47,375 nt of DNA from an uncultured Clostridia bacterium. Its GTDB lineage: Bacteria; Bacillota; Clostridia; Oscillospirales; Ruminococcaceae. The notes beneath the pieces were generated by a model. That model was not told where the DNA came from and ran no database searches. It worked only from the letters and a program-made list of their open reading frames with translations. The stretch is taken from the NCBI GenBank assembly GCA_944386455.1, contig CALXBC010000018.1:1-47375 (forward strand). The letters run 5' to 3'. Positions 18,055-31,644 of the stretch are shown piece by piece; the first letter of the stretch is position 1, and each line of letters opens with the position of its first letter. The translations under genes and the position numbers were made by a program.

Positions 18055-18077
18055 AAGCCGGACAGGAGGATGATACG

Positions 18078-18602: not shown

Positions 18603-18642
18603 TCTTCGGCTGAAAATACGGGTGCTTGGATAAATAGAAAAA

Positions 18643-18669
18643 CAGCGCTGTCCAGACGGACAGCGCTGT
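18643..18669. repeat. Direct repeat flanking element A (left), cspA terminator hairpin copy with T-tract
   Basis: A 27-nt copy of the cspA terminator stem-loop, matching 18846-18872 with one mismatch (18645). Read on the minus strand it is followed by five T, so this copy is the functional rho-independent terminator. The plus strand reads CAGCGCTGTCC-AGAC-GGACAGCGCTG. Confidence 0.88.
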
Positions 18670-18845
18670 AGTCTGTAGAAAAAGGGAATATTTTAGGGAA
18701 AATCCCCTTTTAAATGGAGCAACCGAGGACATGTGCATCGGTTGCGACCTCGACAAACCGCGTCGAAACGCGGTTTGTTGGGGGGTGATATTATAAGAGG
18801 GGGATGCCCCCTCTTATAGAGCGTGTCGACTTTTTCGACACGCTC
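18670..18845 (-). mobile_element. Terminator-associated repeat element, copy A (176 bp)
   Basis: Lies between two copies of the cspA terminator hairpin. In the cspA direction it begins GAGCGTGTCGAAAAAGTCGA (a 27-nt hairpin) and ends CTTTTTCTACAGAC, the same ends as copies B and C. Its interior is unlike theirs: four consecutive hairpins (about 18720-18743, 18752-18778, 18791-18818, 18819-18845). No coding frame is visible. The ends form an imperfect inverted repeat sharing TGT-GAAAAAG. Confidence 0.75.
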
Positions 18846-18872
18846 CAACGCTGTCCAGACGGACAGCGCTGT
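18846..18872. repeat. Direct repeat flanking element A (right), cspA-proximal hairpin copy
   Basis: Second copy of the cspA terminator hairpin, 13 nt from the cspA stop codon. It lacks a T run because element A begins directly after it in the cspA direction. Confidence 0.88.
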
Positions 18873-18885
18873 TTTAACGCTTACA

Positions 18886-19089
18886 TTAAAGAGGCTTGAC
18901 GTTGGCAGCTTTCGGGCCGCGTGCGTCCTGCTCAATGTCGAAGGTTACTTTCTGGCCTTCGTTCAGGGTCTTATAGCCTTCTGTCTGGATCGCGGAGAAA
19001 TGGACGAACACATCGTCGCCTCCGTCGTCGTTGGAGATAAAGCCGAATCCCTTTTCTGCGTTAAACCATTTTACAGTACCATTGTTCAT
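18886..19089 (-). CDS. cspA: Cold-shock protein (CspA family)
   Basis: 67 residues, a single cold-shock domain that binds single-stranded RNA/DNA. Both RNP motifs are present (KGFGFI and DVFVHF), and the N-terminus [14 protein letters not shown] is typical. A strong RBS (AAGGAGGT) precedes the ATG, with a 54-nt leader from the promoter at 19150-19177. Its terminator has been duplicated around element A. Upstream, a hairpin with its own promoter (19250-19371) may be a separate small RNA. Confidence 0.97.
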
Positions 19090-19149
19090 AATAAGGTACC
19101 TCCTTACCTTAAAGAAGCCTGATCTCGATCCAAAACTACTGGAAGTGCT

Positions 19150-19177
19150 ACTGTAACATTTCAGCGAAGGCTGTCAA
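19150..19177 (-). promoter_or_regulatory. Promoter of cspA
   Basis: On the minus strand TTGACA (19172-19177) and TACAGT (19150-19155) are 16 bp apart. A 7-bp inverted repeat (AATGGTT 19176-19182, AACCATT 19194-19200) overlaps the upstream edge of the -35 box. Confidence 0.6.
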
Positions 19178-19249
19178 TGGTTCAATATAACTTAACCATT
19201 TGTTTCTGAGCTTGAAGCAGGTTCTGAAATTTTTGGTATTTTAGCAGCA

Positions 19250-19336
19250 CAAAAACGAAAAAACACATAGCTTCAATCAGTAGGGATAAATGATTGAAGC
19301 TATGTGCGAATCACTTAAATACCAACCAAAATACTA
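19250..19336 (-). ncRNA. Candidate small RNA or terminated leader upstream of cspA
   Basis: A promoter (19343-19371) would start transcription near 19336. A 16-bp perfect stem (19291-19306 with 19264-19279, 11-nt loop) followed by six T ends it near 19255, giving about 85 nt. It may be a free small RNA, or a leader that stops transcription before cspA. The same hairpin can also terminate the upstream repair operon. Confidence 0.45.
19251..19306 (-). terminator. Rho-independent terminator, 16-bp stem
   Basis: Perfect inverted repeat 19264-19279 / 19291-19306; on the minus strand it is followed by TTTTTTCGTTTTT. It ends the AlkD-like operon and/or the small RNA described above. Confidence 0.85.
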
Positions 19337-19337
19337 T

Positions 19338-19371
19338 CATGCAGTATAGCATGTTTTGACGGTTCTGTCAA
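19338..19371 (-). promoter_or_regulatory. Promoter with flanked -10 box, overlapping the AlkD-like gene end
   Basis: On the minus strand TTGACA (19366-19371) and TATACT (19343-19348) are 17 bp apart. CATGC (19338-19342) and GCATG (19349-19353) flank the -10 box as an inverted repeat, suggesting a regulator site. The -35 box overlaps the stop codon of the upstream gene. Confidence 0.65.
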
Positions 19372-20111
19372 GCTTTTTTCTGTCGTTTCATGCTGCGGAA
19401 CAATTCTTTATCTTCCTTTGAAATCCGGTCGGACTCGATTGCTTTTTGCAGCGTCTTGTTGTAGGTGAAATCGTCCAGCCCACATTGCTTCAAAAATTCC
19501 AGCGTCCTGTCCCGATACTTCACCAGACAGACCGAAAGTCCCCATGCGGCCGCCATTTTGACATAATATCCCGGATGCCGCACGGCACCGTATTTGTCCA
19601 GTACCAGATCAATATAGCGGTCGTCGATATAATAGTCCATCAGCATGACCAGCGCAAACCGCAGCTCAAATTCCTGCTCAGAGCAAAGATATTTTTGAAG
19701 ATAGGCCAGCATTTCCTCCGGGTATTTTTTCGCTGCTTTCAGACCGGCACAGCAGGTATCACAGACCGCCCAGTTGTCGATCAGCGGAACAAAGCGGTCA
19801 AGCTGACAGTACAGCTTAGGAAGGTCAAGCCTTGCCAGCCCGATCACCATGCCGTACAGCATGACTTCCTCATAATAGGCATTTCCCGTCAGTGCAAAAT
19901 AAGAATGACAGCCATCCGTTCCTCCTTTGGCGATCTCTTTCGCCAGTCCGCGCAGGATAGGAATGCGGATACCCAGCAGGTTTTCCACACCGGGCACCAG
20001 CTTTTGGTGAAAACTCAGATAGCTTGGATCAGCCAGCTCTTTTAAATGCTTTTTGAGGCGCTCATAGTCTTCTGCTGTCCAGTCAGACAGACAAAAATCC
20101 GTGTTTTGCAA
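19368..20111 (-). CDS. AlkD-like DNA alkylation repair protein (HEAT-like repeats)
   Basis: 247 residues from TTG 20111, chosen because AAAGGAG lies 7-8 nt upstream; the ATG at 20141 has no RBS and overlaps the previous gene. The protein is helical throughout, as in the DNA-7-methylguanine glycosylase AlkD (PF08713): VPGVENLLGIRIPILRGLAKEI, then pairs of helices with WAVCDTCC, EFELRFALVMLMDYY and VKMAAAWGLSVCL. Family members remove alkylated bases or are non-enzymatic relatives. It is the third gene of a small operon behind two membrane proteins with no evident link to repair. Confidence 0.87.
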   Translation of the reverse strand: MQNTDFCLSDWTAEDYERLKKHLKELADPSYLSFHQKLVPGVENLLGIRIPILRGLAKEIAKGGTDGCHSYFALTGNAYYEEVMLYGMVIGLARLDLPKLYCQLDRFVPLIDNWAVCDTCCAGLKAAKKYPEEMLAYLQKYLCSEQEFELRFALVMLMDYYIDDRYIDLVLDKYGAVRHPGYYVKMAAAWGLSVCLVKYRDRTLEFLKQCGLDDFTYNKTLQKAIESDRISKEDKELFRSMKRQKKA

Positions 20112-20124
20112 AAGATTTCTCCTT

Positions 20125-20490
20125 TCATGGAATGATGCCAAGTGAAAGCCGTATGATATAAATTACGGCAAACAGCGCCGCACCGCCCGCCAGAATGCCG
20201 ACCCGCACCGCCTTGCTGAGACGGCGGAGAAAGCGGGCATTATAATGAAACAGGAAAAACAGATAGGGATAGACCACAAACACAAAGGGGTGGTTGGAAA
20301 AGGCGCCTGCAAAATCCAGCCGCAGCAGGTCAAAGGTGGCGCGGGTCATCCCGCAGGACGGGCAGGGGATTCCGGTCAGAGCACGAATCGGACATCCCAT
20401 CCCGCTCCAAAATACCAGGACTGCCAACAGGCACAGACCGCCCGCGATTACAAAATGCAGGACAATCAGCTTTTTAACTCTGTCTGTCAT
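20125..20490 (-). CDS. DUF2752 membrane protein
   Basis: 121 residues. The family signature is clear: CPIRALTGIPCPSCGMTRA, followed by helices and an RLDFAGAFSNHPFVF segment. About three membrane helices are predicted by eye. The cysteine pattern could bind a metal, but the function is unknown. Its start overlaps the upstream stop codon (ATGA), showing translational coupling with the preceding membrane protein. DUF2752 proteins often sit beside other small membrane proteins, as here. Confidence 0.85.
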   Translation of the reverse strand: MTDRVKKLIVLHFVIAGGLCLLAVLVFWSGMGCPIRALTGIPCPSCGMTRATFDLLRLDFAGAFSNHPFVFVVYPYLFFLFHYNARFLRRLSKAVRVGILAGGAALFAVIYIIRLSLGIIP

Positions 20491-20927
20491 TTGGCATCAT
20501 CCGGTTTGTCGAGCTTTTTCATCGCAATACACTCAAACACGACTGCCAGCAAAAGCAGTACCGTGATCCCCCCGCCCAGCAGGGAATAATATTCCAGCCC
20601 AAGCATCAGCAGCGGCATCAGAGAGGTAGCCAGCGCCACAAAGCCAATCACCAGCGCGGCGGTTCGCAGCGGCACCAGCGGCTTTTTGGCAAACAGCAGG
20701 ACCAACAGCATAATTACCAGCGCCGTGCTCAAAACAGCGGTGATCAGCGGGCCGAAATTAGCATAACCATAGGGAGTCAGACTGAAATAGGAATAGGTAC
20801 GTCGGATGATCTCACCTGTTTCCGCATTTCCCATAAAGCGCAGAACCGCCCCGTAGGGAAGCAGCTCGCAGAGAATGGCCGCGGCCATCGCGGCAAAGGA
20901 TAAAGCCGTCCACTTTTTCTCGGTCAT
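20487..20927 (-). CDS. Four-helix membrane protein of unknown function
   Basis: 146 residues with four hydrophobic segments (about residues 7-30, 58-82, 88-106 and 113-133) and a short charged C-terminus. AAAAGGAG lies upstream of the ATG, and the promoter at 20994-21022 precedes it. It is coupled to the DUF2752 gene by a 4-nt overlap. I do not recognise the family. It may form a unit with the DUF2752 protein. Confidence 0.8.
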   Translation of the reverse strand: MTEKKWTALSFAAMAAAILCELLPYGAVLRFMGNAETGEIIRRTYSYFSLTPYGYANFGPLITAVLSTALVIMLLVLLFAKKPLVPLRTAALVIGFVALATSLMPLLMLGLEYYSLLGGGITVLLLLAVVFECIAMKKLDKPDDAK

Positions 20928-20993
20928 GTCAAACCACTCCTTTTCTGTTACCGCAACTGTTTCAAAAGAATGAGAGAAATTCTGTCTGTTTTC

Positions 20994-21022
20994 ATTATAT
21001 CCCGGTCCGGCAGGAATGGCAA
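20994..21022 (-). promoter_or_regulatory. Promoter of the membrane protein / DUF2752 / AlkD-like operon
   Basis: On the minus strand TTGCCA (21017-21022) and TATAAT (20994-20999) are 17 bp apart, 67 nt before the first start codon. Confidence 0.7.
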
Positions 21023-21032
21023 GTTACAATCC

Positions 21033-21066
21033 ATAAACAAAACCAGCCGCAGCATACTGCGGCTGG
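21033..21066 (-). terminator. Rho-independent terminator of galK-galT
   Basis: CCAGCCGCAG (21043-21052) pairs with CTGCGGCTGG (21057-21066). On the minus strand TTTTGTTTAT follows. Element copy E lies between this hairpin and the galT stop codon. Confidence 0.82.
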
Positions 21067-21152
21067 CCAGACTGTCCCAAAACAATAAATAATATAAAAT
21101 TGTCACGCAGGCGGCGCATGTCCGCCTGCGTGACCCCTTGAGCGCGTGTCGG
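21067..21152 (-). mobile_element. Short copy (E) of the terminator-associated repeat
   Basis: An 86-bp stretch next to the galKT terminator. Its hairpin-side end (CCAGACTGT, then an AT-rich run and TGTCACGCAGGCGG) matches the distal end of copies B and C. It holds a 13-bp stem (GTCACGCAGGCGG with its complement). Its other end, GAGCGCGTGTCGG, resembles the GAGCGTGTCG end. It looks like an internally deleted copy. No second hairpin copy lies beside galT. Confidence 0.6.
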
Positions 21153-22124
21153 TTATTTCTTTTCCAAAAAGCGCCGATAGGCCTGCCGCAGCTCCTCTGC
21201 CGTGTCCTCCGGGCAGGTAGGATTGCAGTGTGCCCAGGCTCCTGTTTCACTGGAAGCGTTATATTTGATTTTGGTTTCGCTGCGCATCGGCGGAAAAAAT
21301 TCAACATGAAAATGATAATACTCCGATGTGTCCTCCCCGTTGACCGGCGCGTTATGCATACACATCATGTAGGGAAAGCGGTAGCCAAACAGACTGTCCA
21401 GCATTCCCACCGTATTCCGCAGTGTTTTTGCAAAAGAGGCCTTTTCCTGTGCCGTAAATTCTGCGATATTCTGGCAGTGCCGGTTGCTGATGATATAGAC
21501 GCCGTACGGATACTCCGTAAAAAACGGCAGAAAGACCGTGAAATGCTCATCCTGAAAAATAATCCGTTTTTGCGCGGCCAGCTCTTCCCTGCGCATATCA
21601 CAGAAAATGCAGTTACCCTTTTCCTCTTTGTACGCCTTGGCGGACGCCAGCTCCAGCTCGAGCTTCTTGGGAACAAACGAATAGCCATAGATCTGCCCGT
21701 GCGGGTGCGGCATGGTGACGCCGACGGCCTCTCCCCTGTTTTCGAAAATAAAAACATATTTGATTTTTGGGTCGCTGCTGATTACATGAAACCGTTCGAT
21801 CCAGAGGTCCACCAGCTTTTCGATATGCTCCACCGACAGTTCGGGCAGCGTAACAGTGTGCCCGGGTGAATAGAGAATGACCTCGCATTTTCCATAAGCG
21901 GGTTTTACTCTAAAAAAGTCATTGGCAACGTCATCCGGCTCCGGCGGATTCTGGCTCAGCGCCGGAAAGTCGTTGTCATACTCATAGACTTCATAATCGT
22001 CAGGCACCTTGCCGGAGCCGGGACAAAACGGACACCAGTCCTTTGGCATCTGCGGCCGGTCCTGCCGGTTGGACGCAATCATTACCCAGTCCCTTGTCAA
22101 TGGGTGCCATCTTAATTCTGCCAT
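21153..22124 (-). CDS. galT: Galactose-1-phosphate uridylyltransferase
   Basis: 323 residues from ATG 22124 (MAELRWHPLTRDWVMIA), the typical GalT start; the longer frame to 22169 runs into galK. GalT exchanges UMP between UDP-glucose and galactose-1-phosphate in the Leloir pathway. The catalytic motif HPHGQIYGY is intact, and Cys pairs (CPFCPG, CIFCDM) can bind the structural metal. It follows galK after 22 nt and is transcribed with it. The terminator is at 21033-21066, with repeat element E in between. No epimerase galE adjoins. Confidence 0.95.
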   Translation of the reverse strand: MAELRWHPLTRDWVMIASNRQDRPQMPKDWCPFCPGSGKVPDDYEVYEYDNDFPALSQNPPEPDDVANDFFRVKPAYGKCEVILYSPGHTVTLPELSVEHIEKLVDLWIERFHVISSDPKIKYVFIFENRGEAVGVTMPHPHGQIYGYSFVPKKLELELASAKAYKEEKGNCIFCDMRREELAAQKRIIFQDEHFTVFLPFFTEYPYGVYIISNRHCQNIAEFTAQEKASFAKTLRNTVGMLDSLFGYRFPYMMCMHNAPVNGEDTSEYYHFHVEFFPPMRSETKIKYNASSETGAWAHCNPTCPEDTAEELRQAYRRFLEKK

Positions 22125-22146
22125 TTCAAAACACGCTCTTTTCCTG

Positions 22147-23424
22147 TTATTTGATTTCGATCCCGCCATAAGGACGGATGCTCAGCACATGACAGCTTCC
22201 TGTTCCAAAGACCGCTTCCATACGGTTTTGAAACGATTCCAGCATTGACAGCGGTACAAAATTCTGCGTTGTTCCGCCGAAGCCGCCGCCATGTACCCGC
22301 CATGCTCCGCCTTTGTCCGAAAGCAGATCTTCGGCCAGGCAGAGCGCGACAGACAACCCCTGCTCTTTGGGATTGGAGCAGGAATAAACATTTTGCAGAT
22401 AGCAATAGGAAGACTCACCGGATTCGATCACCAGCTTAAGGAATCGGGAAAAATCGTTTTCCCGCAGCGCATCCACCTGTTTCCCGACCCGCTCGTTTTC
22501 CTTCAGAAAATGAACGGCGCGCAGCAAAGCTCTGTCACCGTGCTTTGCACGCAGCTCTGCCGCTTTTTCCAGTACAGCGGAAAGCGAAGTCTCCCGCAGG
22601 TATTCACACCCCATGCTGTCAGCGATTTCCCGCATTTCCGCAGGGATCGCCGCGTATTCGTGTGTCAGGTCGGCGTGGTTCCCGCCGGTGTCAACGATAC
22701 AAAGCGCATATCCGGATTCTGTAAAGTCAAAGTCCGCTTTTTCAATCAACGGCGTCTGAGGATCGGCAAAGTCAATGGTAATAATACCGCCGACAGAAGA
22801 AGCCATCTGATCCATGAGGCCGCAGGGCTTGCCGAAATAGACATTTTCTGCATACTGGGCAATCTGAGCAATCTCTACTGCATCCACTTTGCCGTCGTTG
22901 TAGCCTTCGCTCAGGATCCGCCCGATCAGGACTTCAAATGCTGCGGAGGAGGAAAGGCCGGATCCCTTGAGCACATTGGAGGTCGTATAGGCGTCAAATC
23001 CGCCGATCTGATAGCCAAGCTGCTGAAACCGCGCCAGGATGCCGCGGATCAAGGCGATTGCCTTGTTGTTTTCTTCCGGATGGATATCCAGCTCGTTCAG
23101 ATTGACAGTATCCATGTCATAGCCCTCAGACTTGATCCGTACGACGCCGTTGTCGTGAAATGCTACGACAGCAATCACATCCAGATCGACGCTCCCCGCC
23201 AGAACGCAGCCGTGATTGTGATCGGTATGATTTCCGCCGATTTCTGTCCGTCCCGGCGCCGAGAATAAACGCAGTTCTTCTTCTGCACCATAAAGAGTCC
23301 TGAACTGCTCTGCTGCCTTGTAAATGCGGTTTTTCTTTTCCTCCAGCCTGCTGTTCCCATATAATGCCGCCACCAGACCGTCCAGTTCTCCCGCATGCAG
23401 CCGCTCAAACGTATTCACTTTCAC
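22147..23424 (-). CDS. galK: Galactokinase
   Basis: 425 residues, a GHMP kinase that phosphorylates galactose at C1. Seen: the substrate motif SAPGRTEIGGNHTDHNHG (residues ~55-72), the ATP motif KGSGLSSSAAFE and the C-terminal glycine motif VHGGGFGGTTQ. It is slightly longer than the E. coli enzyme, as in clostridial relatives. The ATG is preceded by GGCGGGTGTG, a modest RBS. Divergent from it is an AraC regulator, probably the activator of this operon; the -10 TATACT lacks a good -35, as expected for an activated promoter. Confidence 0.95.
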   Translation of the reverse strand: MKVNTFERLHAGELDGLVAALYGNSRLEEKKNRIYKAAEQFRTLYGAEEELRLFSAPGRTEIGGNHTDHNHGCVLAGSVDLDVIAVVAFHDNGVVRIKSEGYDMDTVNLNELDIHPEENNKAIALIRGILARFQQLGYQIGGFDAYTTSNVLKGSGLSSSAAFEVLIGRILSEGYNDGKVDAVEIAQIAQYAENVYFGKPCGLMDQMASSVGGIITIDFADPQTPLIEKADFDFTESGYALCIVDTGGNHADLTHEYAAIPAEMREIADSMGCEYLRETSLSAVLEKAAELRAKHGDRALLRAVHFLKENERVGKQVDALRENDFSRFLKLVIESGESSYCYLQNVYSCSNPKEQGLSVALCLAEDLLSDKGGAWRVHGGGFGGTTQNFVPLSMLESFQNRMEAVFGTGSCHVLSIRPYGGIEIK

Positions 23425-23508
23425 ACCCGCCTTTACTACTTTTTATTTTCAGTATACTACGTCAAAAGTAAATTTTCCATTTTTTTAGCGTTCATTTTAT
23501 GGAGAAAT

Positions 23509-23538
23509 GTTGCAATCGCAACCGTAATATAATATAAT
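23509..23538 (+). promoter_or_regulatory. Promoter of the AraC-type gene with overlapping palindrome
   Basis: TTGCAA (23510-23515) and TATAAT (23533-23538) are 17 bp apart. GTTGC (23509-23513) and GCAAC (23518-23522) form a palindrome over the -35 box, a likely autoregulatory or shared operator in the galK divergent region. Confidence 0.6.
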
Positions 23539-23571
23539 TGGAATATCATAATATGATTATGGGGGGATCAT

Positions 23572-24423
23572 ATGCAAACGGCATTCAAGCATTCCTACAA
23601 GGATACTCTGCGGGAAAATCTGAGCCTTGCGGTGTATAACACCGGCTATGAAAAATGCCGGAGCGGATATACCTGGGGTCCCGCCGTACGGGACCACTAT
23701 TTGATCCATTATGTGATATCGGGCAAGGGAACGCTGTCCTCCGGCGGAGCAATCTACCCCGTTATGCGCGGGGATCTGTTTTTCATCAAGCCGGCCAGCA
23801 TTGTTTCCTATTCGGCAGACCGGGACGAGCCCTGGGAATACTGCTGGGTAGGCTTTAACGGAACGGAAGCCGACCGTCTGGTCGGACTGACGGATTTTGC
23901 CAAGGGGGTTCCGGTGATCCATTATACAAACCACGATCACTTAAAGCGTCTGCTGCTCAATATCTATAATTCTCACGGCAACAATCCATCCAATGAAATG
24001 AAGATGAGCGGCTTCCTCTACCTGTTTTTAAGCGAGCTGGTCAGCAGCAATGAGCTGCATGCTGCAGGACAGTATTCCAGTGAGCGTTCCTATCTGGAAA
24101 AGGCTATGCGGTTTATCCAACGCAATTACTGTGAGATGATCAGCGTTGACGGTATTGCTGAATTTGCAGGGATCAGCCGCAGCCATCTCTACCGCGTTTT
24201 CATGAAAAACACAGGAATGTCACCCAATGAATATCTTTCTGCCTACCGGATCAATAAGGCGTGCGGCCTGCTGAGGAATTCCGGTCTGAAAATCAATGAG
24301 ATCGCCAGCTCTGTGGGGTTTCAGGACCAGCTTTATTTTTCCCGTGTCTTTAAAAAGATGAAGGGGGTTTCGCCATCCGGTTATTTGAAGCAGTTTCAGC
24401 GTGAGACAAAAGAAACACAATAA
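23572..24423 (+). CDS. AraC-family regulator (likely of galKT)
   Basis: 283 residues: an N-terminal cupin-like sugar-sensing domain (DHYLIHYVISGKG, MRGDLFFIKPASIVSY) and a C-terminal double helix-turn-helix (SVDGIAEFAGISRSHLYRVF, KINEIASSVGFQDQLYFSRV, then FKKMKGVSPSGYLKQF). It is divergent from galK with 147 nt between, so galactose-responsive control of galKT is a reasonable inference. The RBS is GGGGGGAT before ATG 23572. Confidence 0.92.
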   Translation: MQTAFKHSYKDTLRENLSLAVYNTGYEKCRSGYTWGPAVRDHYLIHYVISGKGTLSSGGAIYPVMRGDLFFIKPASIVSYSADRDEPWEYCWVGFNGTEADRLVGLTDFAKGVPVIHYTNHDHLKRLLLNIYNSHGNNPSNEMKMSGFLYLFLSELVSSNELHAAGQYSSERSYLEKAMRFIQRNYCEMISVDGIAEFAGISRSHLYRVFMKNTGMSPNEYLSAYRINKACGLLRNSGLKINEIASSVGFQDQLYFSRVFKKMKGVSPSGYLKQFQRETKETQ

Positions 24424-24459
24424 AAAACGCTTGATATATGAGAAAGGAGTCAACAAACG

Positions 24460-25344
24460 ATGTTTGTTCTTGATGCAACGACAGAGGCAGAAAAAGTGGT
24501 AGACCAGGGGCTTGGAATCCTGGATAAAATATGGAACTTTATTTTTGACAACGGACCGCGCTTTTTGGGGGCTGTTATTGTACTGATCGCCGGTCTCCTG
24601 CTTTGCAAGGCTGCGGGAAAGCTGATGAAGAAGGCACTGAAAAAAAGCCATATTGACGAGACGGCACATAAGCTGATTTTACAGATTGCGGACATCATGC
24701 TGAAGGTCCTTGTACTGTTATGCGCTGCGGGCACACTCGGCATTAACACGACGTCGCTGATCACTCTGCTGGGCGCCGTTGGCCTTGCCGCCAGCCTTGC
24801 AGTCAAAGACAGCCTGGCAAGCCTGGCGGGAGGCTTTATGGTGCTGTTTTCCAAGCCGTTTTCCAAAGGGGACTTTATCGAGACCAATTCCGTTTCCGGA
24901 ACGGTGGAAAACATCACGCTTACCTATACGACCCTGAAAACACCGGATAATAAGAGAATATATATTCCAAATGGGGAGATCTCCACCTCCAAAATCGTGA
25001 ATTATTCGGCCGAGGAAACTCGCCGGCTCGATTTGGTATACTCCATCAGCTATCAGGATGACATTCTTCTGGCCAAAAAAATTCTGGCGGAGATCGTCGA
25101 GAGGTCCGGCCTTGCACTGCCAGACCCTGCGCCTGCTTATCTGGTGGCGGAGCAGGCTGCCAGCTCGGTCAATCTTGCAGTACGGGTCTGGGTCAAGACG
25201 GCAGACTATTGGGATTTGAATTTTTACATGAATGAGCAGGTCAAGCTGGAGTTTGACAAAGCAGGGATCACCATCCCATTCAATCAGCTTGATGTCAACC
25301 TGCATGGAGACAAGGCGTCTGTTACCGGTCACAAAGAGGCGTAA
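24460..25344 (+). CDS. mscS: MscS-family mechanosensitive channel
   Basis: 294 residues. Three membrane helices come first; the third is the Gly/Ala-rich pore helix (LLGAVGLAASLAVKDSLASL), followed by the MscS beta domain (GDFIETNSVSGTVENI, DNKRIYIPNGEIS). Such channels open under membrane tension and release solutes after osmotic downshock. It starts at ATG 24460 with AAAGGAG and may be co-transcribed with the next small gene, 26 nt away. It follows the AraC gene after 36 nt. Confidence 0.94.
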   Translation: MFVLDATTEAEKVVDQGLGILDKIWNFIFDNGPRFLGAVIVLIAGLLLCKAAGKLMKKALKKSHIDETAHKLILQIADIMLKVLVLLCAAGTLGINTTSLITLLGAVGLAASLAVKDSLASLAGGFMVLFSKPFSKGDFIETNSVSGTVENITLTYTTLKTPDNKRIYIPNGEISTSKIVNYSAEETRRLDLVYSISYQDDILLAKKILAEIVERSGLALPDPAPAYLVAEQAASSVNLAVRVWVKTADYWDLNFYMNEQVKLEFDKAGITIPFNQLDVNLHGDKASVTGHKEA

Positions 25345-25370
25345 CAGGCGGCGGAAAGGAGAAATGCGGT

Positions 25371-25688
25371 TTGGATGCTGATTGGGAGGTTTGGCTGGGT
25401 GCCGTTGTGCTCCTGCTGATTGCGGCGATGTCGGTCTACCTGCTGACCGGCAGGGGCAGCTGGCTGGTGGCAGGCTATAATACCGCTTCTCAGGAAGAAA
25501 AGGAACGGTATCATGAAAAAAGACTGTGCCGCGTGGTTGGCGCCGGTATTCTAGGGGTGACAGTCCTCATTTTCGTGCTTCTTTTTATGCCTGAGCCGCC
25601 GTCCTGGTACGGCTGGCTGATAGTTTTGGATCTGGCCGTTACGCTGGTACTCGGAAACACGGTCTGCAAAAAGAAAAATAAGGATTAA
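25371..25688 (+). CDS. DUF3784 membrane protein
   Basis: 105 residues with three membrane segments. The family stretch LTGRGSWLVAGYNTASQEEKERY is visible in part after the first helix, followed by KRLCRVVGAG. TTG 25371 is the start, with AAAGGAG nine bases upstream. The function is unknown. Its stop codon overlaps the stop of the opposing terminase gene by three to four bases, and its natural terminator (25736-25770) lies inside the terminase frame. Confidence 0.8.
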   Translation: MDADWEVWLGAVVLLLIAAMSVYLLTGRGSWLVAGYNTASQEEKERYHEKRLCRVVGAGILGVTVLIFVLLFMPEPPSWYGWLIVLDLAVTLVLGNTVCKKKNKD

Positions 25689-27127
25689 CCGCCGCTGACA
25701 AGCCAGGGGGCTGCTGCCGGCGGCTCGTCCCTCAGAAACTGTCCGGCTGATGCCGGACAGTTTTGCTTTACCGGCTGCAGGATCGGACGGAACATGCACA
25801 TATAGCGCGTTTCGTCATAGATGTGGTCTTCTCCGCCTGTGTCAATGTCTTCTACAAAGCAGCTGTCATAAACAAGAGAAGGAATGGTGCGGATAAAGTC
25901 CCGGCAGCAGTCGAAAACATACAGCATCGGAAAGCCGTCCTCATCAAAAGCGAAACGGTTATGCAGCTGCATTTTCCCGGCGATCCGTTCGTGATCGCCC
26001 TTTTCAAAATAGATGCCGTATCGTTCAAACACCTTTGCGACACAACCGTCTGAACCCCGGCTTTCATCAAAAATTGCGGGGTCGGCAATCCCGATGATAT
26101 GCTGCCCCTTTTCATAGCGGTTTTCATACTGCCGGATCATGGCGGCGGTCTGCTCGGGGGATAGGCGCATTCCTGTGTTGGGCTTTCGGGTCAAACGGGT
26201 GTGCGGGTCCTTTGGGCTGCCATATATCTCTGCATAGCGATACAGTCGTCCGTCTTCGTCCTCTGCCCAGTATCCCACGGAAAAGGGGCGGGAATATCCC
26301 CAGTCAAAGCTGCGGTAACGCCGCCAGCCTTTCGGAATGCGAAAAGCCGGGATGACATGGGTATACCGACGGTCTGCCCTGCATTCTGAGCGAAATTCTG
26401 TAAAAACCTGACCGTCAAAGACGTTCCAGTCCCCGAGCAGCAGGGCTTTTCGCAGTGCTTCAGGCTTTTGCTCCAGCTGAAAGGCATATTCTCTGCCGAT
26501 ATAGGGATTGTCTTTGAGTGTAGCCGGAATATACTGCCGGGTGACCGCGGCGCTGTGTCCCAGCACAGAGGAATAAACCGTTTCCGAATAGATTTGAAAC
26601 GGCTGTTTCCCGTCGATAAAAAGAGCTTTTACCCAGCCATGTCCAACTCCGCCGGGATTGGAGGTGCAGCGGATCCGCGGGCGAATACCGGGCATATTTG
26701 CTGTCCGTACCCTGGTTTTCAGATAATCATAGGTCTCCTGTGTGAAATGGGTCAGCTCGTCGATATAGAGCCGGTGCATCTCTGTCCCCTGATAGCAGTA
26801 CGCGTCCTGCAGGTTCCGGCAGAAGCGAAAGTGCAGGACAGAACCGTTGACTAACAGATAATCATGGCGCTGGGAAACATAATGTCCCAGTTCGGCGGGA
26901 ACAGAAGAGAGCGCCTCCTTAAGCAGCGTATCCTGCAGTTCCGGATAGCTGCGGCGGAACAGATAGCTGTGGATGCCGGGATGCTCCAGTGCATCGATCA
27001 GAGCCTCCATGACGATTGCTTTTGACTTTCCGCCGCCGGCCGCGCCGCCGTAAAGCAGCTCATCCGCCGTGCTTTGATGGAACAAGGCCTGCTTGGGCGT
27101 GGGTTGATAGGCCAGATGTACGTTCAT
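25685..27127 (-). CDS. Phage terminase large subunit (orphan, 3' end probably host-derived)
   Basis: 480 residues. The ATPase motor has Walker A LYGGAAGGGKSKA (near residue 30) and Walker B RLYIDELTHF with catalytic Glu; a TSNPGG coupling motif follows. The nuclease half begins near RSFDWGYSRPFSVGYW, with a later FVEDIDTGGEDHIYDETRY. This motor packages DNA into phage capsids. The last ~25 codons read through a 12-bp terminator hairpin that belongs to the opposite gene, so the natural C-terminus may be lost. It overlaps its small upstream partner by 4 nt. No capsid, protease or tail genes are nearby. Confidence 0.9.
   Translation of the reverse strand: MNVHLAYQPTPKQALFHQSTADELLYGGAAGGGKSKAIVMEALIDALEHPGIHSYLFRRSYPELQDTLLKEALSSVPAELGHYVSQRHDYLLVNGSVLHFRFCRNLQDAYCYQGTEMHRLYIDELTHFTQETYDYLKTRVRTANMPGIRPRIRCTSNPGGVGHGWVKALFIDGKQPFQIYSETVYSSVLGHSAAVTRQYIPATLKDNPYIGREYAFQLEQKPEALRKALLLGDWNVFDGQVFTEFRSECRADRRYTHVIPAFRIPKGWRRYRSFDWGYSRPFSVGYWAEDEDGRLYRYAEIYGSPKDPHTRLTRKPNTGMRLSPEQTAAMIRQYENRYEKGQHIIGIADPAIFDESRGSDGCVAKVFERYGIYFEKGDHERIAGKMQLHNRFAFDEDGFPMLYVFDCCRDFIRTIPSLVYDSCFVEDIDTGGEDHIYDETRYMCMFRPILQPVKQNCPASAGQFLRDEPPAAAPWLVSGG
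25736..25770 (+). terminator. Terminator of the MscS/DUF3784 genes, inside the terminase frame
   Basis: AAACTGTCCGGC (25736-25747) pairs with GCCGGACAGTTT (25752-25763), loop TGAT, then TTTTGC. It lies 48 nt beyond the DUF3784 stop and within the 3' end of the terminase frame. Confidence 0.85.
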
Positions 27128-27384
27128 GCGGTCTGGCCTTCTTCCTTTTCTGCAGTTTCATCCGTGCGCGGGATATGATGCGTGACAACAACCGGAGCCT
27201 GTTTGCCGTCTTCCGGCTGTGTTTCTTCGGTCATGCGGATATCCTGGAGCTTTTTTAAGGTAGACGCCGCTTTGTCAATATCTCCGATCGGAAGGGACTC
27301 GGGGTCTGCGCTCCAGCGGCGCAGCATATCGCACAGTTCATCAACAAGCGTAGATATTTCAGCCTTCTGTTTCTGTTCTTTCAT
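27124..27384 (-). CDS. Small protein upstream of terminase (possible small-terminase role)
   Basis: 86 residues, charged and helical with no clear helix-turn-helix; the C-terminus is Glu/Thr-rich. It overlaps the terminase start by 4 nt, so the pair is translationally coupled. Position suggests a small terminase partner or packaging accessory, but the sequence does not prove it. The RBS is AAAGGA before the ATG. A promoter-like motif shared with the portal gene lies at 27422-27457. Confidence 0.65.
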   Translation of the reverse strand: MKEQKQKAEISTLVDELCDMLRRWSADPESLPIGDIDKAASTLKKLQDIRMTEETQPEDGKQAPVVVTHHIPRTDETAEKEEGQTA

Positions 27385-27421
27385 TTATACGTTCCTTTCT
27401 GTTGCAGCTTGTGTTTTTTTC

Positions 27422-27457
27422 ACAATACCACAGAAAGAAAGAGACATACAAGGACAT
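27422..27457 (-). promoter_or_regulatory. Promoter motif ahead of the terminase genes (shared with portal)
   Basis: On the minus strand GTCCTTGTATGTC (-35 TTGTAT at 27446-27451), an 18-bp spacer and TATTGT (27422-27427). The -35 region and T-rich spacer match those at 33313-33348 upstream of the portal gene. Confidence 0.5.
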
Positions 27458-27536
27458 ATGTGAATATGGCATTATTCATCATGCTTTTTCCGGGGGTTGG
27501 AGCTGCCGTCGTTTAGGGACCTGACACATGATAGAA

Positions 27537-27570
27537 AAACCGCAGGAAGCGGAATAGCTTCCTGCGGTTT
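27537..27570. terminator. Terminator hairpin split from dtxR by element D
   Basis: A 14-bp perfect stem (27537-27550 with 27557-27570). ATGATAGAAAAAC at 27528-27540 is the inverted copy of GTTTTTCTATCAT at 27862-27874, which includes the dtxR stop. Together they suggest one long palindromic dtxR terminator interrupted by the element. Confidence 0.65.
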
Positions 27571-27870
27571 GAGCGTGTCGAAAAAGTCGACACGCTCTCG
27601 GGGGACAAACACAATCACTGCGGCAAAGCCTTGTTCTGCGTTTTCCCCCGACTCCCCTCTTTTCCATCCAAAAACGATTCGCCGAATCATTTTTGGATGA
27701 CACCTCTCCGTTCGCGGCCGTATGTCATGGCCGCGTTGCCGCAGCAGCGGCAACCACATCGAGGTGCTGTGCAGAGCAAACAATAGAATAGATACCGCAG
27801 TTTGTCAAGGCTGCAACTGGCGGCGTATGTCCGCCTGCGTGACGATTTTTTATTTTTTATCGTTTTTCTA
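27571..27870 (+). mobile_element. Terminator-associated repeat element, copy D (300 bp)
   Basis: Begins GAGCGTGTCGAAAAAGTCGA. Its first ~90 bp match copies B and C (through TCGGGGGACAAACACAATCA). The middle is different, with hairpins near 27665-27697 and 27713-27753. The end (CGTATGTCCGCCTGCGTGAC, T-rich, CGTTTTTCTA) returns to the shared sequence. It stops directly at the dtxR stop codon. No protein frame was found inside. Confidence 0.72.
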
Positions 27871-28242
27871 TCATTCCTGATGCTCGGCACCGTGCTCTTT
27901 GATTTTTTGAAAGGTTTCTTCGCTGATGACATGTTCGATGCGGCAGGCATCCTCCACGGCGGTCTTCTGATTGACGCCCAGCCGCATCAGCAGCTGAGAT
28001 ATCGTGGTATGCCTGTCATAAACCGACATTGCGATTTTTTCACCTTTTCCGGTGAGCAGAATATAACCGTCTCCGTCTGTTTCAATGTATCCGTTTTCCC
28101 TCAGATTTTTCATGGCCACACTTACACTGGGCTTGGAATAATCCAGTTCATTGGCGATATCGATGGAACGGACGGCGCCGATTCTGTTGCGCAGCACAAG
28201 GATGGTTTCCAGATACATTTCCGCAGACTCCTGTATTTTCAA
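27871..28242 (-). CDS. DtxR-family metal-dependent repressor
   Basis: 123 residues: N-terminal winged helix (VRSIDIANELDYSKPSVSVAMKNL) and dimer/metal-binding domain, without the SH3 domain of DtxR. Metal ligands are M9 (AEMYLE), H78 (DRH), and C100, E103, H104 (ACRIEHV). The Met and Cys match iron-sensing DtxR/IdeR rather than manganese MntR, which has Asp and Glu at those places. TTG start with GGGAGGG upstream. No metal transporter adjoins. Its terminator appears split by element D. Confidence 0.87.
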   Translation of the reverse strand: MKIQESAEMYLETILVLRNRIGAVRSIDIANELDYSKPSVSVAMKNLRENGYIETDGDGYILLTGKGEKIAMSVYDRHTTISQLLMRLGVNQKTAVEDACRIEHVISEETFQKIKEHGAEHQE

Positions 28243-28292
28243 TAAAGACCCTCCCTTAGATGCGGATGCCCGAAAGGCTGAGATATATTACT

Positions 28293-28312
28293 ATTATATA
28301 CAATTATATACA
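28293..28312. repeat. Tandem 10-bp repeat in the dtxR promoter region
   Basis: ATTATATACA occurs twice in tandem, 51-70 nt upstream of dtxR. The minus strand contains TATAAT within it, so it may be a promoter and repressor site. Confidence 0.5.
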
Positions 28313-28347
28313 ATTTTTCTTCAAAATACAAGAGAAACCTGAAATAC

Positions 28348-29367
28348 TCATGCGCTGTGCAGAGATGGTTTTTTCGGCTTGAGATTATGTCTGATCCAGG
28401 TCACCGTATCTGTTATTGTGCGCAGCAAGTCACGGGGACGGTATCCGAGCTCACTGGTAGCCTTGTCGTGAGAAAAACGGTCGTTGCTTTTGAGCGTATA
28501 CAGGGAATATTTTGTATAAAGCGGTCTGCTTTTTTTTCGTTTTGCATCCAATTGAATAAAAGGAGCTGCCGCTTTTGCCATCCACATTGGCAATGTTGGG
28601 ATTTTTCTGCCGCCGCACACCTTTTTGACCATTGCCAGGACCTCCCGGATTTCATAGTGCCTGTTTGATAAAATATAGCACTCCCCTGTTTTTCCTTTTT
28701 CTGCCGCCAGCAGACAGCCGCGTGCCACATCGCGCACATCTACAAAGTCGTATCCGCCGTTGACGCAGGCAGGGAGCTTCCCTGTCATATAGTCTTTGAC
28801 CAGCTGGACCAGGTGATTCCCAGACGAATCATATGGCCCCAGAATCCCTGACGGATGAACAACAACAGCGTCCAGACCTTGTTTCACAAGGTCAAGGACT
28901 GCCTGCGTGGCTTCCGCTTTTGTTTTGGCATAAGCCCCGACGACCTCCTCTGCGGAAAAATGATCGACTTCCTGCAGCACATCAAGCTTTGTCTTTTCCG
29001 GGATGGCGTGGACGGAGCTGACGTATACCATCCGCACCTGTTTCTCCAGACAAAGCCGGGCAACTGTTTTCGTGCCGTTGACGTTGACGTCGTATAGCAG
29101 AGGAGAAATCTGGCCGGAAATGTCTATGATTCCTGCTGTGTGTATGACAACGGTGCTTTGAGGAGAAATTCCGTTAAACAGCGGCAGTAACGAGCCGGGG
29201 TCGCGGACATCTCCCATAAAATAGGTGACATTTTTATGATTCGTTACAGAAGCAAGCTCTGCCGGCAGAACAAGTCCTCGTACAATACAGTCCTGCCTTT
29301 CCAGCAGCCGGATAATTGTACTGCCAAGATGGCCATGGGCACCGGTAACAATATATGTTTTTTTCAT
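28348..29367 (-). CDS. NAD-dependent epimerase/dehydratase (extended SDR)
   Basis: 339 residues from ATG 29367 (RBS GGAAGGAG); the longer frame to 29463 is promoter DNA. The Rossmann motif TGAHGHLG binds NAD(P); the catalytic YAKTK (YxxxK) is present, preceded by VYVSSVHAI. It resembles dihydroflavonol-reductase-like epimerases. The substrate is unknown. A TetR regulator is divergent from it and probably controls it. Confidence 0.9.
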   Translation of the reverse strand: MKKTYIVTGAHGHLGSTIIRLLERQDCIVRGLVLPAELASVTNHKNVTYFMGDVRDPGSLLPLFNGISPQSTVVIHTAGIIDISGQISPLLYDVNVNGTKTVARLCLEKQVRMVYVSSVHAIPEKTKLDVLQEVDHFSAEEVVGAYAKTKAEATQAVLDLVKQGLDAVVVHPSGILGPYDSSGNHLVQLVKDYMTGKLPACVNGGYDFVDVRDVARGCLLAAEKGKTGECYILSNRHYEIREVLAMVKKVCGGRKIPTLPMWMAKAAAPFIQLDAKRKKSRPLYTKYSLYTLKSNDRFSHDKATSELGYRPRDLLRTITDTVTWIRHNLKPKKPSLHSA

Positions 29368-29465
29368 GATGATAACACTCCTTCCATTCCCAATAAAACA
29401 GATGAAATACCGACAAAAACAAATACAATAAAATGTCATATTGATTTTATATTCTGTACACAATG

Positions 29466-29494
29466 TTGATTATCTTTTCTAATTGTATTATAGT
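29466..29494 (+). promoter_or_regulatory. Promoter of the TetR-type gene
   Basis: TTGATT (29466-29471) and TATAGT (29489-29494) are 17 bp apart in the divergent region shared with the epimerase gene. Confidence 0.5.
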
Positions 29495-29586
29495 ATAAAT
29501 AGAAATGGGATACAATCGTCAATCCCGGGTTAGATAGATGGATATTGAACAAAATAGACGTTTTGTGTTGGAATGGGGTGGCTGTT

Positions 29587-30168
29587 TTGAAAAAGTTTAC
29601 AAATGATCATCGCACACGGGTGACAAAAATGCTGATCCGCAAAGCCTTTACACAACTGCTTGTAAATAAACCCATACAGAGTATATCCATTAAGGAGCTG
29701 TGTGAAAAAGCAGGGATTAACAGGGGAACATTTTATGCGCATTATAAAGACATTTATGATTTGCGCAGTCAAATTGAAGATGAAATGCAAAAAGAGCTTG
29801 AAGCGGCGTTAAAGCCCCTGACAGATCAGGCGGACAAAGGGCTGACTCCCGTGCGAATCACAACGGAGATCTTTCAGTGTCTGAAGGATAATTCTGATCT
29901 CTGTACCGTGACGCTGGGGGAATATGGGGATAAGGATTTTTTTCTGCGTTTACTCAGAATGGGACAGCAAAAATGTGTGGATGCCTATTCAAAATATTTT
30001 GAAACAGTTTCTCCGAAAAAGATAGAATACTTTTATGCTTTTGCCAGTTCCGGCTGTGTTGGCTTGCTGCGGCTATGGCTGTCTGACGGAATGACGGCTT
30101 CCGCTGAAGAAATGGCGCAATTTGCAGAAGATATCATGATGAAAGGAATTGCCTGCCTGAAATCATAA
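29587..30168 (+). CDS. TetR-family regulator
   Basis: 193 residues from TTG 29587, chosen for GGGGTGG five bases upstream; the frame extends to 29545 without an RBS. The N-terminal helix-turn-helix is standard (ISIKELCEKAGINRGTFYAHYKDIYDL). The C-terminal ligand domain is helical. It is divergent from the epimerase gene (219 nt apart), so it likely represses it and itself. Downstream lies element B between convergent genes. Confidence 0.9.
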   Translation: MKKFTNDHRTRVTKMLIRKAFTQLLVNKPIQSISIKELCEKAGINRGTFYAHYKDIYDLRSQIEDEMQKELEAALKPLTDQADKGLTPVRITTEIFQCLKDNSDLCTVTLGEYGDKDFFLRLLRMGQQKCVDAYSKYFETVSPKKIEYFYAFASSGCVGLLRLWLSDGMTASAEEMAQFAEDIMMKGIACLKS

Positions 30169-30205
30169 TTCCCGCTGTGGAATAGAAAAATACAGAGAAT
30201 AAAAA

Positions 30206-30240
30206 AATTGAGACCCTGTTTCACACAGGATCTCAATCCA
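30206..30240. repeat. Direct repeat flanking element B (left), Xre-gene terminator hairpin with T-tract
   Basis: 35-nt copy of the Xre gene's terminator hairpin, one mismatch (30230) from 30461-30495. On the minus strand seven T follow, so this is the complete terminator. Confidence 0.92.
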
Positions 30241-30460
30241 GTCTGTAGAAAAAGGATAAATCATAAAAAATCGTCACGCAGGCGGACATGCGCCGACGAA
30301 GTGACTCCTTGCGAGAAAGCCGGCGGTGAGCAGAGGCAAAGCCTTCTGCGGAGCCGGTTTTTGACTAAAAAGGGGGAGTCGGGGGAAAAACGCAGAACAA
30401 GGCTTTGCCGCAGTGATTGTGTTTGTCCCCCGAGAGCGTGTCGATTTTTTCGACATGCTC
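30241..30460 (-). mobile_element. Terminator-associated repeat element, copy B (220 bp)
   Basis: Exactly 220 bp between two copies of the Xre terminator hairpin. In the Xre direction it begins GAGCATGTCGAAAAAATCGA and ends CCTTTTTCTACAGAC. The interior folds into several hairpins, including a TCGGGGGA/TTCCCCCGA stem and a CCGGC/GCCGG stem enclosing GCAGAAGG. It is about 90% identical to copy C by eye. No protein frame is credible. Confidence 0.8.
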
Positions 30461-30495
30461 AATTGAGACCCTGTTTCACACAGGGTCTCAATCCA
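30461..30495. repeat. Direct repeat flanking element B (right), containing the Xre stop codon
   Basis: 35-nt copy that begins, in the Xre direction, with the last codons and TGA stop of the Xre gene and includes the whole hairpin. Element B replaces the T run after it. Confidence 0.92.
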
Positions 30496-30862
30496 TTTCC
30501 ATCAGAGATTCCAGGATTTTTGTGATTTGTGAGATTCTTTCCGGCTTTTGCACCAGCATGCGGAGAATATCCTTTAGCTCGGGATATTCTTTTATATAGG
30601 ATATATATTCAGCAAGATCGTTGTCAGCAAGAAAAACAGAAAAATCCTGGTCGATCTGACTGCCGCTTGAATTGCCAAGCAGATAGTCAACAGAAACGTT
30701 AAGAAACTTCGCTATTTTAACCAGCACTTCGGCAGAGGGCTTGCTTCGGCCGCTTTTCCAGTCGCTGACGTTGCCCGGCGACACACCGATGGCGTCGGCA
30801 AGCTGTTTGTTTGAGATATTGCGTTTTTCCATAATCTCAAATATTTTAGATACATCTAACAC
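30488..30862 (-). CDS. Xre-family transcriptional repressor
   Basis: 124 residues from GTG 30862 (RBS AGAAAGG). The HTH is IEKRNISNKQLADAIGVSPG-type: NKQLADAIGVSPGNVSDWKS, then KPSAEVLVKIAKFLNVSVDYLLG. The C-terminal 45 residues are helical and may oligomerise. Upstream, twin operators (30899-30912, 30929-30942) lie between this gene and a divergent small gene, one inside the divergent promoter, so it likely represses that gene and itself. This layout is like a phage or island immunity switch. Confidence 0.87.
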   Translation of the reverse strand: MLDVSKIFEIMEKRNISNKQLADAIGVSPGNVSDWKSGRSKPSAEVLVKIAKFLNVSVDYLLGNSSGSQIDQDFSVFLADNDLAEYISYIKEYPELKDILRMLVQKPERISQITKILESLMEMD

Positions 30863-30898
30863 AGTCTCAAACACCTTTCTGTATAAAACGACAAAATT

Positions 30899-30949
30899 TT
30901 CGTAAATACGAATTTTTATCTTGAAAAATTCGTATTTACGAAATATAAT
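30899..30949 (+). promoter_or_regulatory. Twin operator and divergent promoter between Xre and the 94-residue protein gene
   Basis: TTCGTAAATACGAA (30899-30912) and TTCGTATTTACGAA (30929-30942) are each near-palindromes and together form a 19-bp-arm inverted repeat, 30 bp centre to centre. A plus promoter, TTGAAA (30921-30926), 17 bp, TATAAT (30944-30949), has the second operator in its spacer. Confidence 0.8.
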
Positions 30950-31066
30950 AGAACCAAGATATTCTTTGACTACCTCCACAGCAATGATCTGTATGAAAAC
31001 AATTATAACAGATATTGTAAAATTTGCAAGAGAAAACGGGGAAAAAGTCAAATGTAAACGGAAAGG

Positions 31067-31351
31067 ATGATTGTGATGCAAAAGGTGAAGGAAGATCTGT
31101 TTTATGGTGAAAACAAATGTCACCAGCGCTTTGAAGCGGATGAAAACTTTCGGGCTGCAAGCTTGCAGGCTGATGAAAGCATTCGCAGACTGGAAGCCGA
31201 TTTAAAAGGAGAAGATCTCGAAGCAGTACGGGCATTGGAGGACGCGCATGCTCAAATGAATGCAAGTACGGCAATCGAATGCTATGTGGAAGGATTTTTC
31301 AATGCGGCAAGGTTATTTATCGCCATGCTGTATGAGGAGCCAAAAGAATAA
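31067..31351 (+). CDS. Small helical protein of unknown function under Xre control
   Basis: At most 94 residues. GAAAGG lies directly before ATG 31067, so GTG 31073 or ATG 31076 is the more likely start. The protein is acidic and helical with no Cys pattern or membrane helix. The C-terminal part (ECYVEGFFNAARLFIAML) resembles small DUF6809-like proteins. Its promoter contains the Xre operator. The terminator hairpin follows the stop at once and is duplicated around element C. The function is unknown. Confidence 0.75.
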   Translation: MIVMQKVKEDLFYGENKCHQRFEADENFRAASLQADESIRRLEADLKGEDLEAVRALEDAHAQMNASTAIECYVEGFFNAARLFIAMLYEEPKE

Positions 31352-31381
31352 TCTGTTGGCTGCCGGATTTCCTCCGGCAGC
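31352..31381. repeat. Direct repeat flanking element C (left), first hairpin copy
   Basis: 30-nt copy of the upstream gene's terminator hairpin (GCTGCCGGA...TCCGGCAGC), starting right after the stop codon and lacking a T run. It matches 31602-31631 except at 31362. Confidence 0.9.
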
Positions 31382-31601
31382 CTGAGCGCGTCGAAAAAGT
31401 CGGCATGCTCTCGAGGGACAAACACAATCACAGCGGCAAAGCCTCGTTCTGTGTTTTTCCCCCGATTCCCCTTTTTCAGTCGAAAACCGGCTCCGCAGAA
31501 GGCTTTGCCTCTGCTCACCGCCGGATTTCTCTCAAGGAGTCACTTCGTCGGCGCATGTCCGCCTGCGTGACGATTTTTTTATTTTTTCCGCTTTTCTACA
31601 G
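31382..31601 (+). mobile_element. Terminator-associated repeat element, copy C (220 bp)
   Basis: 220 bp between two copies of the terminator hairpin of the 94-residue protein gene. It begins CTGAGCGCGTCGAAAAAGTC and ends CGCTTTTCTACAG. The interior matches copy B at about nine positions in ten, with the same paired segments. It has the same orientation relative to its gene as A and B. Confidence 0.8.
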
Positions 31602-31631
31602 TCTGTTGGCTGTCGGATTTCCTCCGGCAGC
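31602..31631. repeat. Direct repeat flanking element C (right), hairpin copy with T-tract
   Basis: Second copy of the hairpin, followed by TTTTCTTT, giving the functional terminator. It stands 14 nt before the end of the opposing portal gene. Confidence 0.9.
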
Positions 31632-31644
31632 TTTTCTTTGAAAT

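Follow-up and report, generated by a model that had tools for sequence, protein, structure and literature searches.

How does a short repetitive element come to lie between two copies of the terminator hairpin of the neighboring gene, with both the gene and its terminator left in place? This question is raised by the window, that is, the whole stretch of 47,375 nucleotides analyzed here from an uncultured Clostridia bacterium (assembly GCA_944386455.1, 97.8% complete, referred to below as the own genome or G000), in which a first-pass annotation had indicated five copies, A to E, of one repeat family. The annotation had read the family as a non-autonomous mobile element that leaves gene and terminator in place while duplicating the whole hairpin, and the present analysis supports that reading. 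The family very probably consists of elements of the miniature inverted-repeat transposable element (MITE) type, which are non-autonomous derivatives of palindrome-targeting insertion sequences (ISs) of the IS1182 family and whose insertion duplicates the whole hairpin.

The direct repeats of 27, 35 and 30 bp, each with one mismatch, that had been described around elements A, B and C were re-found at their coordinates (Table 1), and each repeat copy folds as a complete hairpin. End-anchored alignments score the same repeats as 23, 32 and 26 bp, since they break off at the mismatch or since the outermost bases are shared with the tip of the right end of the element. The suggestion that D and E also touch terminators holds insofar as one hairpin lies beside each of them; D is truncated and lacks a second hairpin, and E is decayed. 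The left end of the family reads GAGCG-TGTCGAAAAAG followed by its own inverse complement, forming a palindrome, while the right end, read inward, is CAGTC-TGTAGAAAAAG. Both ends carry TGT(C/A)GAAAAAG five bases in from the boundary, which bears out the earlier description of shared ends that are imperfect inverted repeats (TGT-GAAAAAG).

At up to three mismatches, the own genome contains 54 copies of the 27-base left-end palindrome, GAGCGTGTCGA-N5-TCGACACGCTC, and none of its uncomplemented reverse, which served as a control. With element B as the query, 46 matching places were found, 37 of which cover at least 188 of the 220 bases. Stretches were fetched around most of the 54 left ends, and 56 left-end palindromes at up to five mismatches lie therein; left/right pairs with a four-mismatch right end and a repeat score below 12 were dropped, giving 45 two-ended elements of 220–229 bp (28 elements), 300–309 bp (seven), 170–179 bp (four) and other sizes (six). 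Elements of about 170–330 bp with inverted-repeat ends, a target duplication and many copies correspond to MITEs, and there is no room in them for a transposase or a reverse transcriptase.

Most of these elements lie between duplicated hairpins. Direct repeats of 13–33 bp that form a hairpin and are anchored at both ends flank 34 of the 45, and the same test applied to control flanks displaced by 100–1300 bp yielded an anchored repeat in 0 of 378 cases. All 34 repeats differ from one another in sequence, in agreement with the claim that the hairpin is specific to its site and derived from the host, and in 17 pairs the two copies are identical. At 31 of the 34, the hairpin edge carries at least four T on one side or four A on the other, which is terminator-like on either strand. 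The centers of repeat and hairpin agree within one base in 29 of 34 MITE insertions and in all 17 insertions of full-length ISs considered below, and repeat length, which ranges from 13 to 39 bp, tracks hairpin length (Spearman 0.70, n = 51, comprising the 34 MITE and 17 IS insertions); one IS locus (L138), in which one flank consists of N, was left out of both comparisons.

The link to a known family came through a nested insertion. In an Onthomonas metagenome-assembled genome (MAG), a second element, whose left end is GAGGCTGTCAAAAAAG, is flanked on both sides by a copy of the left-end palindrome belonging to a first element (L071; three mismatches in 27). Since the family has one left-end palindrome per element, the empty site is known from the family consensus. 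This case pointed to palindrome-targeting ISs, and the IS1182 family, for which palindrome-specific insertion and repeats of varying length are on record, was then tested. With the IS1182 transposase model NF033551 (E <= 0.001), matches were obtained in 20 of 81 genomes, six over the cut-off. Within the order to which the window belongs, taken to be Oscillospirales, 129 of 395 genomes gave a match, 30 over the cut-off. Nine of 32 IS1182-type loci of the order (L136–L139, L169, L170, L173, L175 and L178) lie between complete palindromic repeats of 29–39 bp, and all nine have the ends CAGNYTGT(C/A)(G/A)A. In L169, L170, L173 and L178, moreover, the IS end upstream of the transposase gene shares 13 identical bases, TGTCGAAAAAGTC, with the MITE left end, five bases in from the end in both; as a bare BLAST match this identity is weak (E = 0.23), and it counts only jointly with its position. 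Both MITE ends agree with IS1182 inverted repeats, and the 34 of 45 own-genome elements described above share with this family a palindromic target and a repeat that spans the palindrome. A Pfam scan of the transposases of three relatives returned DDE_Tnp_1_6, DDE_Tnp_1 and DUF772. At five of the nine loci (L137, L139, L169, L170 and L178), an extra hairpin was seen by eye just inside the terminal repeat at one or both ends, which is perhaps a terminator shielding the transposase gene.

Full-length relatives on plasmids extend the observation and supply insertion-free alleles. The L169 transposase matched 370 records of a plasmid collection, of which 13 loci, picked for variety, were inspected. 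Hairpin repeats of 19–30 bp flank nine of them, from Enterococcus faecium (two loci), Sutcliffiella, Lactococcus, Bacillus subtilis, Rhizobium, Vibrio, Aminobacter and Providencia; whole-palindrome repeats around full-length IS1182 elements thus measure 19–39 bp overall and range from Clostridia to Proteobacteria. Two Enterococcus plasmid sites are filled in NC_017962.1 and NZ_LR134109.1, which hold elements of 1,517 and 1,516 bases between two identical hairpins of 27 and 22 bases, respectively. Empty sites with two hairpins already in place had been named as a finding that would refute the earlier reading; at these two sites, by contrast, five of six insertion-free records (L208, L210, L211, L212 and L213) show one hairpin, slightly changed in L210, the sixth (L209) diverging within the hairpin and being uninformative.

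Several results weigh against this assignment and have to be set beside it. In the own genome, NF033551 at E <= 0.001 gave no match; a MITE by definition has no transposase of its own, but the driver is unseen, for which reason the element is filed as an IS1182 derivative rather than as an IS. The own genome holds two near-identical genes at contig ends for an rve-like transposase of 308 amino acids (L110 on contig C37 and L122 on contig C13), which are weak matches to NF033594 (8.9e-10 and 5.0e-8). Neither hairpin repeats nor element ends were found alongside these genes, apart from two right-end-like strings with two mismatches inside a neighboring frame of L110; the genes represent a different insertion sequence, which might nevertheless have a role. 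Among the IS1182-type loci of the order, 23 of 32 showed no complete hairpin repeat; these include contig-end fragments and IS1182 subgroups with other ends (e.g., L141, L183 and L185), as well as one locus with two unlike hairpins (L140). An exact GAGCG left end was found in no full-length IS among the loci examined. On plasmids, the Thermocaproicibacter and Exiguobacterium loci have a different hairpin at each end, and the ISEfa7-type Enterococcus and Staphylococcus simulans loci showed no hairpin repeats. The insertion-free alleles belong to full-length relatives only and not to the short element.

Eleven of the 45 two-ended elements, likewise, lack an intact anchored hairpin repeat. As read from the flanks, one of the two hairpin copies is wholly or partly gone in five (C13:51704, C2:63076, C26:19685, C3:50290 and C30:23479, given as contig and position), two have degenerate or partial hairpin copies (C6:61784 and C43:6960), one has the same stem on both sides with differing loops (C41:9645), one has two hairpins in opposite orientations (C12:55074), and one has a 10-base AT-rich repeat and no hairpin (C39:1751). 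The last, C6:25546, sits inside the loop of a stable hairpin and has the 6-base repeat AATATT.

The elements do not appear to recognize terminators as such, contrary to what had been proposed. One of the 34 (L008) lies in a 13-base palindrome without a T-run, another element has inserted in the loop of a hairpin, and the nested element has inserted in the left-end palindrome of another element. Because copies sit in such non-terminator palindromes, the target is taken to be the palindrome rather than the terminator, and terminators would be hit most because they are the commonest palindromes. The fixed orientation relative to the gene and T-run that had been noted is true of A, B and C, but over the 34 elements it amounts to no more than a bias: 18 have the longer T-run beside the right end, six have the longer A-run beside the left end, and 10 are tied (p = 0.023). 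At nine of them, open frames of 70 codons or more run into the left-end side only, at six into the right-end side only, and at 19 into both sides. Among the 17 full-length ISs, the corresponding orientation counts are six and 11, a lean opposite to that of the MITEs. A strict orientation rule is rejected by the counts over these 34 MITE and 17 IS insertions.

A mechanism that accounts for these features can be proposed. An IS1182-family DDE transposase, acting in trans, would bind the MITE ends and insert at a palindrome, mostly a terminator hairpin. This palindrome would probably take the form of an extruded cruciform. At the 5' feet of its two arms, in positions symmetrical to the dyad, the target strands would receive the 3' ends of the transposon; repair of the resulting gaps would then copy the whole hairpin, leaving one copy on each side. 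The gene would keep a hairpin, and hairpin and T-run would be rebuilt beyond the far side of the element. Gap repair of the whole hairpin implies that repeat length follows the palindrome. DDE transposases mostly make target duplications of a fixed length, which is set by the geometry of the protein; a length that varies with the target would be expected were the palindrome itself to bring the two attacked phosphodiesters together, as at the base of a cruciform.

Alternative explanations differ in which part of this account they replace. One concerns the form of the target, on which the data are silent: it is conceivable, though distinctly less probable than the double-strand cruciform, that the same family duplicates hairpins formed in single-stranded DNA, on the lagging strand or in a transcription bubble. 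The mild MITE bias of 18 to 6 would suit such a target; the full-length ISs lean the opposite way, and the symmetry of the repeats about the dyad fits attack on both strands, which counts against a single-stranded target. A different transposon family is a far weaker contender. The first-pass annotation had hinted at an IS1202-like duplication, and an origin as a MITE from the IS1202 family, in which long target duplications are made by the IS1202 subgroup, could draw on the TGT...ACA motifs near the element ends and on the two weak own-genome matches to NF033594, which we take to be the nearest model for that family. That model matched 13 of 81 genomes, none over the cut-off, and its own-genome pair has no element ends alongside. 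In PMC10132070, the long-duplication members of the IS1202 family likewise have duplications, of 16–28 bp, but the outer ends of that family are others, 5'-TGT and ACA-3', whereas the boundary here lies five bases outside TGT at both ends. For that subgroup the available portion reports neither a specific target nor a length tied to a hairpin, whereas the repeats here are as long as their palindromes require, from 13 to 39 bp. Ends and repeats of the expected kind are found instead in elements matched by NF033551, and the ends and the hairpin targeting are those of IS1182. An IS1202 origin is very improbable.

The origin of the paired hairpins by duplication could also be questioned, in that insertion might replace a hairpin as in IS1272, the pairs coming about otherwise, for example from host sequence carried by the element ends. 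The hairpins at which IS1272 and TnSha1 insert, among them several terminators, are removed wholly or partly (PMC5678879, PMC4923244), and around some copies here one hairpin is likewise missing or incomplete. IS1272 deletes the hairpin without duplicating it (PMC5678879), a difference that also counts among the points against the assignment made here; the elements of the window's family duplicate the hairpin whole, and removal of a hairpin without a direct repeat is not what is seen around them. A single hairpin in insertion-free alleles faces two identical ones in filled alleles, the 34 hairpins all differ with 17 identical pairs, and the nested insertion adds a case with a known empty site, all of which makes replacement hardly tenable for this subgroup. 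Least probable of all is an RNA-linked element, or one resembling a group IIC intron, that follows terminators and owes its repeats to target-primed synthesis. Group IIC introns insert at terminators, are not known to duplicate their target, and carry a reverse transcriptase and a ribozyme; the terminator sites are alike, while the duplication sets the present elements apart, and neither a ribozyme nor a reverse transcriptase was seen here. The preference for terminators and the constant orientation of A to C would suit such an element, but orientation is not fixed across the family, non-terminator palindromes are also hit, the ends match a DDE transposon, and Rfam at its gathering thresholds reported only cspA, and no group II ribozyme, in positions 18000–32500 of the window.

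The reading as IS1182-derived MITEs can be placed among known systems. Palindrome targets of some IS1182 members have been noted in the review by Siguier et al., as cited in PMC5678879 and PMC4923244. IS1272 of this family replaces stem-loops, with attack proposed at the 3' feet (PMC5678879), and TnSha1/IS1272 copies sit in hairpins, several of which are terminators, with deletions (PMC4923244); as here, these hairpins are chosen by structure, with no sequence consensus (PMC5678879, PMC4923244). The Fig. 13 legend in PMC5678879 includes whole-hairpin duplication as a hypothetical branch, pathway b, and a loop-only branch, pathway c; the elements described here fit pathway b, and the copy at C6:25546 fits pathway c. 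The closest relatives are the palindrome-targeting IS1182 subgroup (NF033551, CAGNCTG ends), with the same end sequence, whole-palindrome repeats and terminator-like hairpin sites; the MITE left end differs in that GAGCG opens it and its own inverse complement comes next, and such a palindrome was not seen in the full-length elements inspected. The bacterial MITEs RUP, BOX, SPRITE, Chunjie and QMITE are also short, mostly intergenic and present in many copies (PMC10969869), and the available portion of that article describes whole-hairpin duplication for no MITE and does not mention IS1182. Among the titles and abstract beginnings listed in searches of an open-access collection, none on an IS1182 MITE or on observed whole-hairpin duplication was found, ISfinder and the subscription literature being outside this scope; curators there may well be aware of them already.

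Related elements between hairpin repeats are also found in other Clostridia. An exact search for the left-end palindrome in the GTDB genome collection returned 29 stretches, 27 of them from Clostridia, including Acetanaerobacterium elongatum, which carries MITE copies, and Gemmiger, Onthomonas and Metaruminococcus MAGs; the other two, from a Bryobacterales MAG and an Actinomycetota MAG, look like chance matches. In the genome G034, judged by identical positions to be that of A. elongatum, IS1182 fragments lie at contig ends, and an assembled full-length element with matching ends was not found. The exact palindrome was not found in the viral collection. Thirteen of 21 GTDB candidate pairs with both ends have anchored repeats of 19–35 bp, identical in 12 of the 13, and the sequence adjoining the ends varies between species. 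In a genome of the same genus (G001), at least 26 places match B, C or D and at least nine match A (40 of 95 candidates scored). Comparison with this genome yielded no precise insertion-free site for the short element; at the site corresponding to A, the cold-shock gene ends in one unrelated hairpin and carries no element, which is weakly supportive. At intergenic sites of G001 matching those of E and C (L190 and L193), a separate palindromic repeat, ATACTAAAATCTAATTGAAA...TTAGATTTTAGTAT, was observed.

Remnants and unusual arrangements were also seen in the own genome. Three solo 27-base left-end palindromes, with the rest of the element gone, occur at C9:61983 (L050), C25:11490 (L053) and C37:2254 (L048), the first two flanked by an A-run and a T-run exactly as host terminator hairpins are; they are left ends that were domesticated or else arose by hairpin replacement. 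An element of about 100 bases at C14:11645-11745 (L103) consists of two right ends face to face and has no left end. Sites on C4, C8 and C51 with a right end only were set aside as chance or coding sequence by appearance, and no full-length element was reached from them; a generic scan of the loci collected up to that point for long-spaced hairpin repeats found nothing. On C1, at about 128,450–128,880 (L020), two tandem elements occupy one terminator with a hairpin copy between them; the second is flanked by hairpins on both sides, and the left hairpin of the first was not found. Such hairpin-element-hairpin arrays seem to arise when one target is used more than once. In the window, the match to the Rfam cspA thermoregulator (RF01766; 18842-19222, minus strand) spans the cold-shock gene whose terminator holds element A and reaches the edge of the left end of that element, and a single open frame with diverged internal repeats of about 48 bases occupies 45844-47235.

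Table 1. Copies of the element and adjoining hairpins in the window (positions in the 47,375-nucleotide stretch).
Feature	Position	Strand	Remarks
Hairpin copy, right-end side of A	18643..18669		Direct repeat of 18846-18872, 1 mismatch
Element A, 176-bp subfamily	18670..18845	-	Left-end palindrome 18819-18845, right end at 18670
Hairpin copy, left-end side of A	18846..18872		Direct repeat of 18643-18669
Host hairpin adjoining decayed element E	about 21043..21066
Element E, internally deleted and decayed	about 21068..21152	-	Right end at 21068, left-end remnant near 21140
Host hairpin 5' of the left end of element D	about 27537..27570
Element D, about 300-bp subfamily	27571..27870	+	Left-end palindrome 27571-27597; right end truncated, single hairpin
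Hairpin copy, right-end side of B, adjoining T-run (minus strand)	30206..30240		35-bp direct repeat
Element B, 220-bp subfamily	30241..30460	-	Left-end palindrome 30434-30460
Hairpin copy, left-end side of B	30461..30495		35-bp direct repeat
Hairpin copy, left-end side of C	31352..31381		30-bp direct repeat
Element C, 220-bp subfamily	31382..31601	+	Left-end palindrome 31384-31410
Hairpin copy, right-end side of C, then T-run	31602..31631		30-bp direct repeat

Taken more generally, it is likely that an IS1182-type clade of DDE transposases picks its target by DNA shape, with strand transfer at the four-way junction formed by cruciform extrusion and a duplication equal to the palindrome; MITEs of this clade would thereby colonize terminators with little harm, copying the terminator and sometimes stacking as hairpin-element-hairpin-element. 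The dependence of repeat length on the palindrome and the centering on the dyad make structure-directed, probably cruciform-based, integration directly testable. The hairpin-deleting mode of IS1272 and the hairpin-duplicating mode would be joined in one family by attack at opposite feet of the same stem-loop, and landing at gene ends with the terminator rebuilt offers a possible reason why dozens of copies can accumulate in a genome without breaking genes.

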